From Asanoa hainanensis (GTDB lineage: Bacteria > Actinomycetota > Actinomycetes > Mycobacteriales > Micromonosporaceae): a DNA stretch of 64,000 nt. Made by a program: the position numbers and the translations under genes. Shown piece after piece: positions 15,160 through 52,166 of the stretch; position 1 is the stretch's first letter; each line of letters starts with the position of its first letter. The stretch is taken from positions 620,001-684,000 of the forward strand of contig NZ_FZPH01000003.1 in NCBI RefSeq assembly GCF_900188485.1, read 5' to 3'. The notes below the pieces were generated by a model. It searched no databases, was not told the DNA's origin, and was given only the letters and a program-made list of their open reading frames with translations.

Positions 15160-15223
15160 TTGCTCTGCACCCATATACGCAACACCCCTGGCGCGGGGTG
15201 GTGCGTATATGGGTGCAGAGCAA
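15160..15223. repeat. Long palindromic intergenic element (29-bp arms)
   Basis: Two 29-nt arms (15160-15188 and 15195-15223) are inverted copies with a single mismatch, separated by a 6-nt loop (TGGCGC). Each arm begins TTGCTCTGCACCCATATACG. As RNA it would form a near-perfect 29-bp hairpin and could end doxX transcription, but the arms are far longer than a terminator needs. It looks like a dispersed palindromic (REP/MITE-like) element. A smaller hairpin (CGGGTG/CACCCG, 15226-15244) sharing the TGCAGAG core follows. Confidence 0.75.
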
Positions 15224-15540
15224 AGCGGGTGTGCAGAGCACCCGGCCGACCCGGCGGGAAAGCAGGACGCGAGGGCTGCAGGCCGACCGCCAAGGCCGCA
15301 CGGAGGCACGCGGGACGCGGGCGCGGCGCACGGGCGCACGCGGCACACGCCCGAGCCAGCGCCCCGACGGCCCGGACGCCGGGCAGGGGAACGGCCGTGC
15401 GGGAACGAGGTGTCAGGAGGTGGCCGGTGCCCGATCATCGGGGCGGGCGCGATGATCCGCAGATGCAACACGCGCCACAGCTATCGCCCGTTCGATCACC
15501 GGTAGGCTTGCCGAAGGTGTGCCGGGAAGGCTGGTCGGCG
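15224..15540. other. Non-coding stretch before nhaA
   Basis: About 320 bp of GC-rich sequence without a convincing gene. It holds the small hairpin at 15226-15244 and a -10-like TAGGCT at 15503-15508 that could start the nhaA transcript with a 5' leader of about 25 nt. Open frames through it show no family resemblance. Confidence 0.4.
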
Positions 15541-16851
15541 ATGCCGTCGCCGACCGTTGGGGGAGCCTCTGTGGCTGACAAGAAGCCAGCCGGCCGCCTG
15601 TTCGCTCGCGGCAGTCTCGTCGAGACGACGCGCGTCGCCGAGATTCTGCGCACCGAGACCGCTGGTGGGTTGTTGCTCGTCGGTGCGGCGGTGGTCGCTC
15701 TGGTCTGGGCGAACTCACCCTGGTCCGGCACGTACGAGACGATCTCGGACGCCACCTTCGGGCCGGCCGCGCTCCACCTCGACCTGAGTGCCGCCGCGTG
15801 GGCGGCCGACGGGCTGTTGGCCATCTTCTTCTTCGTCGCCGGGCTGGAGCTCAAGCGCGAGTTCGTCGCCGGTGATCTGCGTGACCCGCGCCGGGCGGCA
15901 CTGCCGGTCGCCGCCGCGGTCGGCGGGATGATCGCGCCAGCGATCATCTACCTCGCGGTCAACGCCACCATGGCCGACGGTGCTCCGCGCGGGTGGGCGA
16001 TACCCACGGCGACCGACATCGCCTTCGCGCTGGCCGTGCTCGGTCTGATCAACACGCACCTGCCGGCGGCTCTGCGGACCTTCCTGCTCACCTTGGCCGT
16101 GGTCGACGACCTGCTGGCCATCACGATCATCGCGGTGTTCTACACGAGCAGCCTGCACGCCGTGCCGCTGCTGCTCGCGTTGCTGCCGATCGCGGCGTTC
16201 GGCGTGCTGGTGCAGCGCCGCGTCAGATCGTGGTGGCTGCTGCTCCCGCTCGCCGTCACCGCGTGGGCGCTGGTGCACGCGTCCGGCGTGCACGCGACCG
16301 TCGCCGGCGTGTTGCTGGCCTTCACCGTGCCCGTGCGGCGCAAGGACGAAAGCGACGGGCCCGGGCTCGCCGAGCACTTCGAGCATCGCTGGCGCCCCTT
16401 GTCCGCAGGCATCGCGGTGCCGCTGTTCGCCTTCTTCGCGGCCGGTGTCACGGTGGCGGCCGCGAACGTCGGCGCGCCCGTGACCATCGGCATCGTCGCC
16501 GGGCTGGTCGCCGGCAAGACGATCGGGGTGCTCGCGTCGACCTGGCTCGTGCAGCGCTTCACCCGGGCCGAGCTTGCCAAGGGCCTGTCCTGGTGGGATG
16601 TGCTCGGCCTGTCGATGCTGGCCGGCGTCGGCTTCACCGTCTCGCTGCTGATCGGTGAGCTCGCGTTCGGCGCCGGCACCGACCGGGACGCCGACGCGAA
16701 GCTCGGCATCCTGATCGGGTCGGTGCTGGCCGCGGCCGCCGCGACCGTGCTGCTGCGGGTGCGCAACCGCCACTACCGCGAGCTCGTCGAAGAGGAGAGC
16801 CGCGACGAGGACGCCGACGGCATCCCCGACGTCTATCAGCGCGGGGACTGA
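15541..16851 (+). CDS. nhaA: Na+/H+ antiporter NhaA
   Basis: A 436-residue polytopic protein of the NhaA family. It exchanges Na+ (or Li+) for protons across the membrane and supports pH and salt homeostasis. The transport-site motifs are present: [13 protein letters not shown] and [15 protein letters not shown] with the essential aspartate pair, plus [13 protein letters not shown] near the N-terminus. ATG at 15541 (GGAAGG upstream) and GTG at 15571 (GGGGGAG upstream) are both plausible; the mature protein is the same from ADKKPAGRL on. Its last 16 bp overlap the convergent ThrRS gene. Confidence 0.93.
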
Positions 16852-18035
16852 CCGGCGGCGGCGATCAGGCGCAGCGCGTCCGCCGCCGGCATGGGCGGGA
16901 GCTCACGGCCGCCGCGTTCGCGCAGCGCCACCTCGCCTGACGAAGCCTCTCGCGCCCCGATCACCGCCACGTACGGGACCTTCAGCGCCGCCGCGTCGCG
17001 TACCCGGGCGCCCAGGGAACCGCCTTCGGCCGCGACGTCGGCGCGCAGCCCGGCCGAGACGGCGGCGGCCGCGAAGGACGAGGCAGCCGAGGCCGCGTCG
17101 GCCGACACCGGCAGGACCCGCAGTTGCAGCGGCGCGTACCAGACCGGGAAGGCTCCCGCGTGCGCCTCGATCAGGTAGCCGAAGAGCCGCTCCATGCTGC
17201 CGACCAGGCTGCGGTGGATCAGCACCGGCCGTGCACGGGCACCGCCGGCATCCACATAAGACAGGTCGAAGCGCTCCGGTTTGTCGAAGTCGAGCTGCAC
17301 GGTCGACAGGGTCCAATCCCGGCCGGCCGCGTCCGCCACCTGGATGTCGATCTTCGGCCCGTAGAAGGCAGCCTCCCCTGGGGCCTCGACATAGGGCCGG
17401 TCGCCGAGCGCCGAGCGCAACAACGACTCGGCCAGCTCCCACGACGACGAAGAGCCGATGTACTTCGAGCCCGGCCCGCGCAGCGCCAGCCGCAGGCCGC
17501 TGACCTGGACACCGAGCGCGGCATGCGCCACGTCCACCAGCCGGAGCACCGACGCCACCTCGGCACCCACGTCGGCCAGGGCGCAGAAGATATGCGCGTC
17601 GTTGAGGTGGATCGCGCGGACCCGGCTCAGCCCGCCGAGCACCCCGGACCGCTCGCTGCGGTACATGCCACCGATCTCGGCGACCCGCAACGGCAGCTCC
17701 CGGTACGACCGCCCGCGCGCGAGATAGACCAGGCAGTGATGTGGACACAGCGCCGGCCGCAGGAAGAGCTCATCGTCGTCGGAGACTCGCATCGGCGGGA
17801 ACATGTCGTCCTCGAAATACCCGAGGTGCCCGGACAGCTCGAACAGCTCGCGCCGGCCCAACGGTGGTGAGTAGACGTGCTGGTAGCCGTTGCGCCGCTC
17901 CAGGTCACGCAGGTATTCCTCGACGGCGTGCCGGGCGGTGGCACCGGCCGGCAGCCAGATCGGCAGGCCCGCGCCGGAACGCGGGTCGGAGTGGAAGATC
18001 CCGAGCTCACGCCCGAGCTTGCGATGGTCGATCAT
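16836..18035 (-). CDS. Short threonyl-tRNA synthetase lacking TGS and editing domains
   Basis: A 399-residue class II synthetase corresponding to the catalytic core (about 1-295) and anticodon-binding domain (about 300-395) of ThrRS. The three zinc ligands that select threonine are kept: Cys97 (RPALCPHH), His148 (NDAHIFC) and His273 ([20 protein letters not shown]). Motif 2 reads [20 protein letters not shown]. The N-terminal TGS and editing domains of a normal ThrRS of about 640-690 residues are absent, so it cannot clear Ser-tRNA(Thr) in cis. It may be a second, regulated or inhibitor-resistant enzyme beside a housekeeping ThrS. The ATG at 18035 has CAGGAG 6 nt upstream. A Thr-codon leader and terminator precede it. 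Confidence 0.88.
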
Positions 18036-18080
18036 TGTGCGCTCCTGACGGAAAGGGCGGCGACCCCGTCGGCGAGCAGC

Positions 18081-18110
18081 GAAAAGCCCCGAGCGGAGTC
18101 GCCCGGGGCT
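18081..18110 (-). terminator. Attenuator terminator upstream of ThrRS
   Basis: On the minus strand an 11-bp stem (AGCCCCGGGCG against CGCTCGGGGCT, one G-U pair, 4-nt loop ACTC) runs straight into TTTT. This is a classic intrinsic terminator, rare in this genome type, placed between a leader peptide and the synthetase start 45 nt downstream. Its upstream arm contains CCGGG, able to pair with CCCGG in the 3' arm of the preceding hairpin (18139-18158), so alternative folding is possible. Confidence 0.7.
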
Positions 18111-18128
18111 GGATCGATGACGGTAGGG

Positions 18129-18182
18129 TCAGCGCAGCACGCCGGGACATCCCGGCGTCGTCGTGCGTGCAGGCCCAACCAT
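18129..18182 (-). CDS. Thr-rich leader peptide (attenuator) for ThrRS
   Basis: A 17-codon frame on the minus strand encodes MVGPARTTTPGCPGVLR, with three consecutive ACG threonine codons at positions 7-9, and stops 18 nt before an intrinsic terminator stem. The third Thr codon opens a perfect 9-bp hairpin (ACGCCGGGA/TCCCGGCGT, 18139-18158). A ribosome stalled for lack of Thr-tRNA would block that hairpin, as in trp/thr-type attenuators. There is no strong ribosome site before its ATG, so translation is inferred. Function would be sensing charged tRNA(Thr), not the peptide product. Confidence 0.6.
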   Translation of the reverse strand: MVGPARTTTPGCPGVLR

Positions 18183-18243
18183 GCCGCCAGGCTAGCGAGC
18201 CGGCCGCCCGGGCCGCATCCCAATAAGACCCCCGAGGAATGGC

Positions 18244-19173
18244 ATGCGTACGAAGCCGGAGCTGACCGCGGCGATCCGCGCGGCACGCCGGGCCGTGCTC
18301 CTGGTCAACGCCCACTCCCGCCGCGGTCGGCGGCTCTACCCGGAGGTGCTTCGCCGCGTCGAGGCGGCCGGCTTCGACCTGCTCGGCCGGTTCCCTGTCG
18401 AGGACCCGCGCGAACTGCGCAGCAGCCTCGAGTCGGCCACCGAGCTCGGCCCCGACGTGCTGATCGTCGGTGGCGGCGACGGCACGATCGGCGCCGCCGC
18501 GCGGCATCTGGCACACCGCGACGTCGCGCTCGGGCTGCTGCCGCTCGGCACGACCAACAACTTCGCCCGTACGCTCGGCATCCCGCTCGATCTGGACGCG
18601 TCGGTGGGGATCCTGACCGGTGGCAAGGTGATCGACGTCGACCTCGGGCTGGCCGGCGAGATGCCGTTCGCCAACCACGTCGGTGTCGGGATGTCCGCGG
18701 AGATCTTCGCGACCGCACCGCCCCGGTTGAAGAAGGTGGTCGGTCGGCTCGCCTATCCGGCGACCGCGCTGGCGCTGCTGACCCGGCACCGGCCGATGCG
18801 GGTCACGGTGCGGGCCGACGGGCGCTCGCACGAGTACGTGACGCACCAGCTCTACGTCGCCAACGGCGGGTTTCACGCCGGCCGCCCGATCACCGCGGAT
18901 GCCGACGCCGACGATCGGCTGCTGGTCGCGTACCCCGTCGGCGATGCCAACCGCGTGCGGCTCCTGCGGGAGACGGCGCGCAACGCGGCGACCGGCCATC
19001 TGCGCTCCCACGGCGAGGAGCCGTTCCTGGCCACCGACGAGATCTGGCTGGAGACCGACCGGCCGGTGCCGATCGAGGTCGACGGCGAGCCGCGGGGCTA
19101 CACACCGCTGCGGATCGGCCTGGCGCCCAACGCGTTGCGGGTGATGGCCGCGCAGGACGCGATCGACCGATAG
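18244..19173 (+). CDS. Diacylglycerol kinase family lipid kinase
   Basis: A 309-residue YegS/DAGK-type kinase. It has the nucleotide motif VGGGDGTIGAAARHL (about residues 78-92), LPLGTTNNFARTLGIP, and a C-terminal beta-sandwich domain (about 140-300) ending with VEVDGEPRGYTPLRIGLAPNALRV. The family phosphorylates diacylglycerol or related lipids. The ATG at 18244 follows GAGGAA. The gene is divergent from the ThrRS leader (62 bp between starts) and converges on the transglutaminase operon. Confidence 0.9.
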   Translation: MRTKPELTAAIRAARRAVLLVNAHSRRGRRLYPEVLRRVEAAGFDLLGRFPVEDPRELRSSLESATELGPDVLIVGGGDGTIGAAARHLAHRDVALGLLPLGTTNNFARTLGIPLDLDASVGILTGGKVIDVDLGLAGEMPFANHVGVGMSAEIFATAPPRLKKVVGRLAYPATALALLTRHRPMRVTVRADGRSHEYVTHQLYVANGGFHAGRPITADADADDRLLVAYPVGDANRVRLLRETARNAATGHLRSHGEEPFLATDEIWLETDRPVPIEVDGEPRGYTPLRIGLAPNALRVMAAQDAIDR

Positions 19174-19174
19174 C

Positions 19175-20023
19175 TCAGCGGCGCCGGGTGATCTTGACTT
19201 CGACCGCCTGGCCGGTGTTCGGCGGGCCGGCGTAGACGCCCTTGAGCGGTGGCACGTCGCCGTACTCCCGGCCGCGGCCGACGATGACGTGCCGTTCGCC
19301 GATCGCGACACCGTTCGTCGGGTCGAAGCCGCTCCACCGGCCCGCCCACCACTCCACCCAGGCGTGGCTCTGGCCGACCACCGTCTCGCCGACCGGCGCG
19401 TCCGGCGTCGGATGCAGGTAGCCGGACACGTACCGGGCCGGCACGCCCATCGCCCGCAGCAGCCCGACGGTCAGGTGGCTGAGGTCCTGGCAGACCCCGC
19501 TGCGCTGGCGCCAGGCCTGCACGGCGTCGGTCTGCACCCCGGTCGAACCGGCCACGTACGCGACCTCGGTGTGCACCCGCTCGCACGCGGCCAGGGCGGC
19601 GGCGTGCGGAGTGCGGTGCGCGCCGCGAAGCTCCTCGGCCAGCGCGGTCAGCTCTTCGTCGAGCGCGGTCCGCGGAGTCGGCAGCAGCAGCTCGTGCCAA
19701 CGGTCGACAGTGTCAGACAAGGCCAGGTCGGCCCAGGTCGCCGGGGCCAGCAGGTCGCCCGGCGGCAGCGTCTCGACCGTGGCCGACGCGGTGACCGCCA
19801 ACCGCTCGTGCGGGGTGTGCACGTCGAACGCCGTCACCACCGTGCCCCAGTAGTCCGCATAGCGATACGTGCTGGCCGCCGGCCACACCGCGACCCGGGC
19901 GTCGAGCACCGCCTGGTGCGGCTCGTCGCGGGGCGTCATCCGGGCCTCGTTGTAGGACGCGCCGACCCGGCCGTCGTAGCTGAACCCGGTCTCGTGCTGG
20001 ATCTCCAGCCGCCAGCTGTTCAC
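19175..20023 (-). CDS. Transglutaminase-like cysteine protease family protein
   Basis: A 282-residue protein with an N-terminal beta domain (about 1-135) and a transglutaminase core: Cys in RSGVCQDLSHL, His in GQSHAWVEWW and Asp in GFDPTNG form the triad. It is the third gene of an operon with an alpha-E protein and a permuted ATP-grasp enzyme, a widely conserved trio predicted to make or break peptide bonds or isopeptide links. The GTG start at 20023 overlaps the alpha-E stop by 4 nt (GTGA). An upstream extension of the frame is the shadow of the alpha-E gene. Confidence 0.9.
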   Translation of the reverse strand: MNSWRLEIQHETGFSYDGRVGASYNEARMTPRDEPHQAVLDARVAVWPAASTYRYADYWGTVVTAFDVHTPHERLAVTASATVETLPPGDLLAPATWADLALSDTVDRWHELLLPTPRTALDEELTALAEELRGAHRTPHAAALAACERVHTEVAYVAGSTGVQTDAVQAWRQRSGVCQDLSHLTVGLLRAMGVPARYVSGYLHPTPDAPVGETVVGQSHAWVEWWAGRWSGFDPTNGVAIGERHVIVGRGREYGDVPPLKGVYAGPPNTGQAVEVKITRRR

Positions 20024-51127: not shown

Positions 51128-52033
51128 ATGCTCTACACCGCACACTTCGGCGCGGCGGTGCTGGGCTGTTATCTCGTGGCCTGGGTGATGCTCCGGTCCC
51201 GCTGGCCGGCCACCAGCCCGACCGTCGCCATCCTCTGCTGGCAGGGCATCGGCCTGGCGGTGGGGCTGTCCGCGATCGGGATCCCGATCTCGTTGGGCCT
51301 GGCACCCTACGGCCGCCCGCCGGGCACCGCTCTGCGGATCCTGGCCGACGACCTGGCCGGCGGCCGCCTCCCAGCCGAGCTCGGCGTCGGCCACCTCGCG
51401 CTGATCAGCGTCGGGCTCGGCATCGGCGTCGTGCTGTTCTGGTCGACCGGCTCCAGCCTCCGGCACGCCGCCAAGGCTCGGCAGCGCCAGCGTGACCTGC
51501 TCGCGCTTGTCGCCCGGGCCGATCCGGCCGCGCCGGGTGCGCTGGTGCTCGACCACCCGAGCGCGGCCGCCTACTGCGTGCCGGGGCTGCGCCCTCGCGT
51601 CGTGATCAGTGCCGGCGCGCTCAGTCTGCTCCGTCGTGACGAGCTCGCCGCGGTGCTCAGCCACGAGCAGGCCCACGCCAAGGAGCGGCACGACCTCGTC
51701 CTGCTCCCGTTCTCCGCCCTGGTCCGCGCGCTGCCCGGGGTGAGCTGGATGGTCCGCGCCATGGCCGCCGTCGCCCTGCTGGTCGAGATGCGCGCCGACG
51801 ACCGGGCCCGCCGCCAGCACACCGACGAGCTGCTGGCGGCCGCGCTGGCCCGGTTCGCGACCGCGCCGTCGCGCGTCACCCCCGCCGGCATGCTCGCCGC
51901 CGCCGACCACGACATCGTCGCCCGGGTACGCCGGCTCCGCGCGCCGCTGGGCCCCACCCCGCTGGCGGCCCTGGTCGCCCTGGCCAGCACCACCGCGCTG
52001 GCCGCGCTCCCGGTCGCCCTGTTCCTCTCCTAA
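51128..52033 (+). CDS. M56 family (BlaR1-like) membrane metallopeptidase
   Basis: A 301-residue membrane protein with about four membrane segments and the zinc motif SHEQAHAKERHDL (HExxH) in a cytoplasmic loop near residue 180. The surrounding VLDHPSAAAYCVPGLRPRVVISAGAL is typical of short BlaR1-like peptidases without a penicillin-sensor domain. It would cleave the BlaI-type repressor encoded 3 bp upstream when triggered. With no extracellular sensor domain the inducing signal is unknown; the cydABDC neighbours suggest respiratory or envelope stress. Confidence 0.9.
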   Translation: MLYTAHFGAAVLGCYLVAWVMLRSRWPATSPTVAILCWQGIGLAVGLSAIGIPISLGLAPYGRPPGTALRILADDLAGGRLPAELGVGHLALISVGLGIGVVLFWSTGSSLRHAAKARQRQRDLLALVARADPAAPGALVLDHPSAAAYCVPGLRPRVVISAGALSLLRRDELAAVLSHEQAHAKERHDLVLLPFSALVRALPGVSWMVRAMAAVALLVEMRADDRARRQHTDELLAAALARFATAPSRVTPAGMLAAADHDIVARVRRLRAPLGPTPLAALVALASTTALAALPVALFLS

Positions 52034-52042
52034 ACGCCAAGC

Positions 52043-52059
52043 TACGACAGCACGTAGTA
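52043..52059. promoter_or_regulatory. BlaI-type operator 1 upstream of cydA
   Basis: TACGACAGCACGTAGTA: half-sites TACGAC and GTAGTA flank 5 bp (5 of 6 symmetric pairs). Confidence 0.5.
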
Positions 52060-52075
52060 GAGTCATGTCCATGAC

Positions 52076-52092
52076 TACTACACAACGTAGCA
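52076..52092. promoter_or_regulatory. BlaI-type operator 2 upstream of cydA
   Basis: TACTACACAACGTAGCA has the same 6-5-6 layout as operator 1, with centres 33 bp apart. A further GCTAC-GT-GTAGC palindrome (52108-52119) and a TATAAC (52125-52130) follow. Confidence 0.5.
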
Positions 52093-52166
52093 CTGATAGG
52101 TAGGGAAGCTACGTGTAGCATCGCTATAACAAGCGAACCTCACTATCCCCTCGGAGGGGCTTGGTC

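Follow-up and report, generated by a model that had tools for sequence, protein, structure and literature searches.

The region upstream of a short threonyl-tRNA synthetase (ThrRS) gene in Asanoa hainanensis is, judged from its sequence, very probably a leader-peptide attenuator, specific for threonine, that controls an auxiliary ThrRS devoid of an editing domain. The region lies in the window, by which we mean the whole stretch of 64,000 nucleotides that was analyzed. Upstream of relatives of the short ThrRS, the Thr codons, the start codon, its spacing to a −10-like box, and the two hairpins, H1 and T, are all kept. This conservation within the class strongly supports the original prediction, which had described the arrangement as having the geometry of a leader-peptide attenuator.

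The leader region and the short ThrRS gene

The features of the region in the window are as follows.

18189–18194, minus strand: TAGCCT, a −10-like box separated by 6 nt from the leader ATG
18129–18182, minus strand: leader ORF, 17 codons plus stop, MVGPARTTTPGCPGVLR
18156–18164, minus strand: three consecutive ACG Thr codons (codons 7–9), the presumed sensing site
18139–18158, minus strand: hairpin H1, 8 perfect pairs with a 4-nt loop, opening in the third Thr codon
18085–18110, minus strand: hairpin T, terminator-like and the presumed OFF hairpin, with a stem of 11 pairs, one of them G-U, and a loop of 4 nt
18094–18103, minus strand: segment A, GGCGACTCCG, comprising the loop of T and the adjoining apex of its 5′ arm
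18059–18068, minus strand: segment D, CGGGGTCGCC, downstream of T and upstream of the Shine-Dalgarno sequence
18042–18045, minus strand: Shine-Dalgarno sequence GGAG of the ThrRS gene
16836–18035, minus strand: short threonyl-tRNA synthetase gene, 399 amino acids, ATG at 18035

The 17-codon minus-strand frame with three consecutive ACG codons that had been predicted was confirmed (18182–18129, with the ACG codons at 18164–18156). On the minus strand, codons 1 to 9 read ATG GTT GGG CCT GCA CGC ACG ACG ACG, and codons 10 to 17 plus the stop codon read CCG GGA TGT CCC GGC GTG CTG CGC TGA. The ThrRS start expected after a CAGGAG was likewise found, with GGAG at 18045–18042 and the ATG at 18035. 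H1, which in the window is ACGCCGGG-ATGT-CCCGGCGT, had been described as a perfect 9-bp hairpin at 18139–18158 and actually has 8 bp. For T, a stem of 11 bp followed by TTTT had been claimed. The 11 pairs hold, and the TTTT does not, since this run of four T includes the last stem base and is followed by CG, the real 3′ sequence being TTTCG. The 102-nt leader has a folding energy of −54.1 kcal/mol, compared with −40.1 kcal/mol (sd 3.3) for shuffled sequences (z −4.2). The spacing between TAGCCT and the leader ATG suggests that the transcript is leaderless; a consensus scanner found no sigma-70 promoter in 16500–19500. No Rfam family matched the window at the gathering threshold, and a T-box riboswitch was rejected on this ground.

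The short ThrRS matched TIGR00418 (thrS) only at profile positions 172–559 of 565, and its only Pfam domains are tRNA-synt_2b and HGTP_anticodon, which correspond to the class II core and the anticodon-binding domain. The protein is therefore without the N-terminal TGS/editing region. One other ThrRS is encoded in the genome (G000:C11); it is full length and 43% identical to the short form. Among the relatives kept in this study, the nearest named one is that of Asanoa ishikariensis (94%). Behind the ThrRS gene lies a convergent nhaA-like gene (15160–16851, plus strand) and in front of it a divergent lipid kinase gene (18244–19173, plus strand), so that the ThrRS gene appears to be monocistronic. 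Upstream of the core of the nhaA-like gene, at 15160–15223, there is a near-perfect inverted repeat with 29-nt arms (97% complementary) and a 6-nt spacer.

By eye, some short ThrRS frames of other genomes (L118, L121, L122, and L124) seem to open with His/Asp/Pro-rich stretches before the core. A reading of the short ThrRS as a borrelidin-resistance enzyme was considered and rejected. A passage in PMC4389257 gives L489 of Escherichia coli ThrRS as a borrelidin-resistance position, and the equivalent residue is K or Q in 60 of 62 short ThrRS (62 of 111 loci were matched by the expression used). The organism's own full-length ThrRS also has Q at this position, which means that the residue does not discriminate.

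Conservation of the leader upstream of short ThrRS genes

A GTDB contig scan yielded 210 relatives, of which 80 were kept; these come from Asanoa, Micromonospora, Salinispora, Actinoplanes, Dactylosporangium, and allied genera. A short-ThrRS match (E 1e-104 or better) was found in at least 61 of 394 genomes of the class, in families f1, f2, f19, f20, f21, and f22, this count being a lower bound because genome G208 has a short ThrRS (locus L193) and is yet missing from the list. The set of upstream regions used below comprises 169 rows, namely, the 80 relatives, the window, and 88 regions from other genomes of the class. These rows hold 166 distinct leader-to-start sequences, and some species entered by both routes (e.g., L071 and L167); hence, not all rows are independent.

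All 169 readable upstream regions, from six families, contain a leader ORF in which Thr codons form a run of two or more. The run comprises at least three Thr codons in 163 regions, and Thr-Thr-Pro is encoded in 168. The leader starts with ATG in 158 regions and with GTG in 11, and a TANNNT motif stands 6 to 9 nt before the start codon in 168. Among the Thr codon runs, ACG ACG ACG is the most frequent (108 regions), followed by ACC ACG ACG (47), ACG ACC ACG (7), ACG ACG (6), and a run of four ACG (1). Outside family f1, most leader peptides follow, exactly or closely, the pattern M(K/Q)RAxxTTTPExVPAR, in which PExVPA is encoded by H1.

In principle, H1 and T could be kept for another reason, such as RNA stability or protein binding, with the Thr codons being a by-product of H1. 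The near invariance of H1, which overlaps the third Thr codon in most regions, would fit such an explanation. However, in 139 of the 169 regions H1 does not include the first two Thr codons, and the run of three is nevertheless kept in 163; the ACC/ACG changes, with ACC at codon 1 (47 regions) or codon 2 (7 regions), are synonymous in all 54 cases. The start codon and its spacing to TANNNT are also kept despite a leader length that varies from 15 to 26 codons. We therefore consider this explanation highly unlikely.

We applied a leader rule that combines a TANNNT located 4 to 9 nt before an ATG or GTG with a run of at least three Thr codons. The rule was satisfied by 162 of the 169 homologous upstream regions, compared with 1 of 3380 dinucleotide shuffles, and by none of 20 regions before full-length ThrRS genes. 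In the window, a second site at 52020–52165 (plus strand) also satisfies the rule, with the short ORF MTTTQRSTDR immediately ahead of a gene that, by eye, is cydA-like. CTACTAC/GTAGTA repeats at this site are kept in six genomes of the genus and resemble a BlaI/CopY-type operator; the Thr codons of MTTTQRSTDR are therefore probably a by-product.

A covariance model, R1, was built from 50 sequences spanning the ATG to T; with its 5 pairs, it is essentially a sequence model. R1 sites were found in 52 of 296 genomes of the class, with an E-value no worse than 1.1e-6 in 46 of these genomes. Of these 46 genomes, 43 are also in the short-ThrRS list, and by coordinates the site adjoins the gene. In the other three, the site lies at a contig end (G352), before a short ThrRS (L193), and before a full-length ThrRS (L194). 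Genus g70, which is not that of the window, offered an out-of-sample comparison within 61 genomes, 30 of which have a short-type ThrRS (E 1e-128 or better). An R1 site stands directly upstream, on the same strand, in 29 of these 30 genomes (28 of the 29 being outside the R1 model and one, G138, inside), and in none of the 31 genomes without a short ThrRS. Among seven weak R1 sites, that in G327 is a known short-ThrRS site; those in G272, G339, and G348 and one of two in G275 have no recognizable ThrRS behind them.

The idea that a leader-like ORF stands by chance before an ordinary gene could draw on a search for a loose H1 pattern, which gave two sites in the organism's own genome, the window site and one other. 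The contrast between homologues and shuffles under the leader rule, and that between the two groups of g70 genomes, make chance so improbable that it can practically be disregarded. The link of the leader to the short ThrRS appears to be near-exclusive.

Two exceptions nevertheless count against the preferred reading as a leader-peptide attenuator of the short ThrRS. At L194 (G359:C55:36600-38600, family f19), a Thr leader and hairpins stand, by eye, before a full-length ThrRS. Conversely, the g70 exception G551 (L203, G551:C225:771600-773000) has a short ThrRS without leader and H1, and T, D, and the Shine-Dalgarno sequence are kept (by eye); this natural deletion could be used as a test case. 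Genome G524 (L204, G524:C316:24000-32500), one of the 30 g70 genomes with a short-type ThrRS, has two further ThrRS-like matches without an R1 site. They are 53% and 37% identical to the short ThrRS of the window and lie in a region that by eye looks like a biosynthetic cluster.

Hairpins H1 and T and the question of termination

Using a permissive finder, both the H1 stem and the T stem were detected in 169 of 169 upstream regions. The minimum free energy of the H1 segment was better than that of dinucleotide shuffles, with a mean z of −2.1 and z < −1 in 160 of 169 regions; for the T segment, the mean z was −3.7, with z < −2 in 134 of 169. RNAalifold, applied to a MAFFT alignment, returned only 5 pairs because H1 was misaligned between families, and pairs were therefore counted on each sequence's own stems. 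Such counting favors pairing by construction; the shuffle controls were used for both hairpins. Counted in this way, T has many two-sided compensatory changes, at most positions. H1 has few (e.g., in L009 and L051), owing to its near invariance.

One possible, if somewhat doubtful, explanation is that the element is a purely transcriptional attenuator, in which T is an intrinsic terminator and the complementarities of segment D described below have no regulatory role. T is very stable (median −29.5 kcal/mol), occurs throughout the set, and is followed by TTT in the window. T would then belong to an actinobacterial type of intrinsic terminator for which little or no U-tract is needed. On the other hand, a run of at least four T at the end of the T stem is rare, being found in 14 of the 169 regions, the window included (11 with an earlier finder), and the consensus scanner, which needs 5 T in 8, found no intrinsic terminator in 16500–19500. 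The lack of such a run in 155 of the 169 regions also weighs against the preferred reading as a leader-peptide attenuator; a terminator of the U-tract kind is doubtful for most relatives. In the part of PMC8079986 that deals with thrL of Streptomyces lividans, the authors likewise saw no uridine-rich stretch.

Pairing of CCCGG in H1 with CCGGG in T had been put forward as a possible antiterminator. When a ribosome was modeled on the second Thr codon, 164 of 169 nascent folds engaged at least five T 5′-arm bases in pairing with sequence upstream, which speaks for a transcriptional device. The antiterminator is thus predicted for stalled nascent RNA, but 129 of 169 nascent folds modeled without a ribosome show the same pairing. 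With a median of −17.4 kcal/mol, the antiterminator duplex is less stable than T and could therefore win only kinetically. Both this difference in stability and the ribosome-free pairing are points against the attenuator that we favor. Covariation was uninformative (z −0.60, swap 0.528), speaking neither for nor against the pairing.

Complementarity between segments A and D and the Shine-Dalgarno sequence

In the window, segments A and D share a 10-bp complementarity with a z of −3.2 relative to shuffled D. The test was devised after this complementarity had been spotted by eye, and controls were run later. Across the set, 60 of 67 distinct A segments were tested, 7 being dropped because the D region was shorter than 15 nt. 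The mean z versus shuffled D was −1.80, with 50 of 60 below −1, and the swap value was 0.179, i.e., on average only 18% of foreign D segments fit equally well. Five control pairings with D, involving the lower T 5′ arm, the lower and the top part of the T 3′ arm, and both H1 arms, were near null, with mean z values from −0.32 to 0.20 and swap values from 0.50 to 0.55. The T loop alone, which is part of A, gave a z of −0.94 and a swap of 0.269 against D. Controls with A gave +0.32 against promoter-upstream DNA and −0.24 against the first ThrRS codons.

In relatives, a second complementarity links D to the Shine-Dalgarno sequence, with a mean z of −1.33 and a swap of 0.265 (56 tested), or −1.16 and 0.292 over 78 distinct Shine-Dalgarno segments. 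In the window, the same pairing was not better than shuffles (z +0.89). The A:D helix takes at least three T-stem bases in 56 of 56 cases and therefore excludes at least the top of T. The A:D and Shine-Dalgarno helices share at least three D bases in 34 of 56 cases, and none in 14. Because RNA polymerase reaches D later than T, the conservation of D would argue for a role after the termination decision, and the complementarities of A:D and, in relatives, of D to the Shine-Dalgarno sequence hint at a translational output. Among the matches listed in our search of the open-access literature, none described such A/D/Shine-Dalgarno complementarity.

These pairings could reflect a mainly translational device, in which T would hardly terminate. 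With T open, A would capture D and the Shine-Dalgarno sequence would be free; with T closed, D would block it. We regard this as a serious possibility, though it falls short of being probable. It would account for both sets of complementarities against the near-null controls, for the use of the T stem by A:D in every case tested, and for the overlap of the two helices on D in the majority of cases. Such a device would possibly resemble the leaderless polycysteine attenuators of mycobacteria. Moreover, when T was forbidden with the ribosome modeled at the stop codon, mean predicted Shine-Dalgarno access rose from 0.20 to 0.40 (162 regions).

Between the modeled OFF and ON states, however, access was almost equal, which counts against a translational reading. 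The mean changed from 0.20 to only 0.25 (162 regions), with a rise of more than 0.2 in 20 regions and a fall in 5, and in the window access went from 0.16 to 0.11. Further points against it are that the antiterminator occupies part of A, that the two D helices have no common base in 14 of 56 cases, and that the pairing of D with the Shine-Dalgarno sequence is not significant in the window. The nearly constant access and the nonsignificant pairing in the window are also points against the attenuator that we favor. The purely transcriptional explanation gains from this last result and from predicted access that barely switches. A terminator-only device gives no reason, in turn, for the A:D complementarity or, in relatives, for that of D to the Shine-Dalgarno sequence, because D lies downstream of T.

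Proposed mechanism

For the leader-peptide attenuator that we favor, the following sequence of events can be envisaged. Transcription would start at or next to the leader ATG, and the leader would be translated while RNA polymerase proceeds. With ample Thr-tRNA, the ribosome would reach the stop codon and cover H1, T would form, and the ThrRS gene would be off, T presumably acting through termination. With scarce Thr-tRNA, the likely inducing condition, which could arise when threonine runs short or the housekeeping ThrRS fails, the ribosome would stall on the Thr codons and cover the H1 5′ arm. The freed H1 3′ arm could then pair with the T 5′ arm, so that T would fail and antitermination would allow expression of the ThrRS gene.

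T may have a second, post-transcriptional role, in which its state would determine whether the Shine-Dalgarno sequence is blocked by D; such a role is suggested by the conserved complementarities of A with D and, in relatives, of D with the Shine-Dalgarno sequence. In its fullest form, T would be read twice, first as the attenuator hairpin and then as a mask of A acting as an anti-anti-Shine-Dalgarno, giving a class-wide, two-layer control by Thr-tRNA charging. We put this forward tentatively and consider it rather unlikely.

Comparison with known systems

The original prediction had called a leader-peptide attenuator on an actinobacterial ThrRS paralogue a new regulatory wiring. This can no longer be maintained, as a thrL before thrS has been published (PMC8079986) and attenuators before trpS and leuS have been predicted (PMC1262725), according to the passages on these genes. 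A 2021 paper on S. lividans TK24 lists thrL (MKRVRPFLETTPGFVPAR) ahead of thrS and reports its transcript as leaderless, in line with the −10 geometry in the window; in the passages concerned, thrL is a one-species table entry for which termination is "not clear" (PMC8079986). The two cases are alike in having a leaderless Thr leader before thrS. In the same passages, neither a comparison across the class nor an A:D or D:Shine-Dalgarno element is given, and the short, editing-less form does not come up (PMC8079986). At locus L202, an 18-residue leader identical to the S. lividans thrL peptide stands directly before a short ThrRS, so that the published case, as far as those passages describe it, is very likely the same system as the element in the window.

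Leader-peptide attenuation of a synthetase gene is shared by the window element and by pheST, where the attenuator responds to Phe, has a U-tract terminator, and does not involve an auxiliary paralogue. In mycobacteria, leaderless polycysteine short ORFs are said to act as an attenuator (reportedly Canestrari 2020). Like the leader in the window, they are leaderless short ORFs with a run of a single residue, which in their case is Cys, and they precede another operon. TrpRS1 of Streptomyces coelicolor is also said to be controlled by attenuation. A section of the review PMC9437257 describes TrpRS1 as auxiliary and indolmycin-resistant, and the title of a paper cited there calls it inducible. 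TrpRS1 and the short ThrRS are thus both auxiliary synthetase paralogues; TrpRS1 serves Trp, and resistance is known for TrpRS1, as stated in that section.

Seliverstov 2005, the source of the predicted attenuators before trpS and leuS in Streptomyces, names the pheST attenuator of γ-proteobacteria and, in the passage on threonine operons, reports no conserved RNA structure upstream of these operons in its set (PMC1262725). The trpS and leuS cases and alaL of S. lividans (PMC8079986) have, as here, a leader with cognate codons before a synthetase gene; in the parts of the two papers that cover them, the amino acids are other than Thr. Among the matches listed for the open-access literature searched, there were no other papers on a Thr leader before a short ThrRS. 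At the level of sequence comparison, the wide distribution in the class, the almost exclusive association with the short ThrRS, and the conserved complementarity of A:D and, in relatives, of D to the Shine-Dalgarno sequence appear to be new.

Biological implications

The Thr leader before the short ThrRS is no curiosity of one species, as it occurs in six actinobacterial families, and the arrangement is tied almost only to the auxiliary, editing-less paralogue. The short ThrRS thereby gains a testable role as a backup when charging of Thr-tRNA fails, for example, under a ThrRS inhibitor. The complementarities between A, D, and the Shine-Dalgarno sequence likewise make a dual action of one leader, on termination and on translation, testable. 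If T is indeed read twice, stalling on the Thr codons would both let the transcript through and free the ribosome-binding site of this spare ThrRS.
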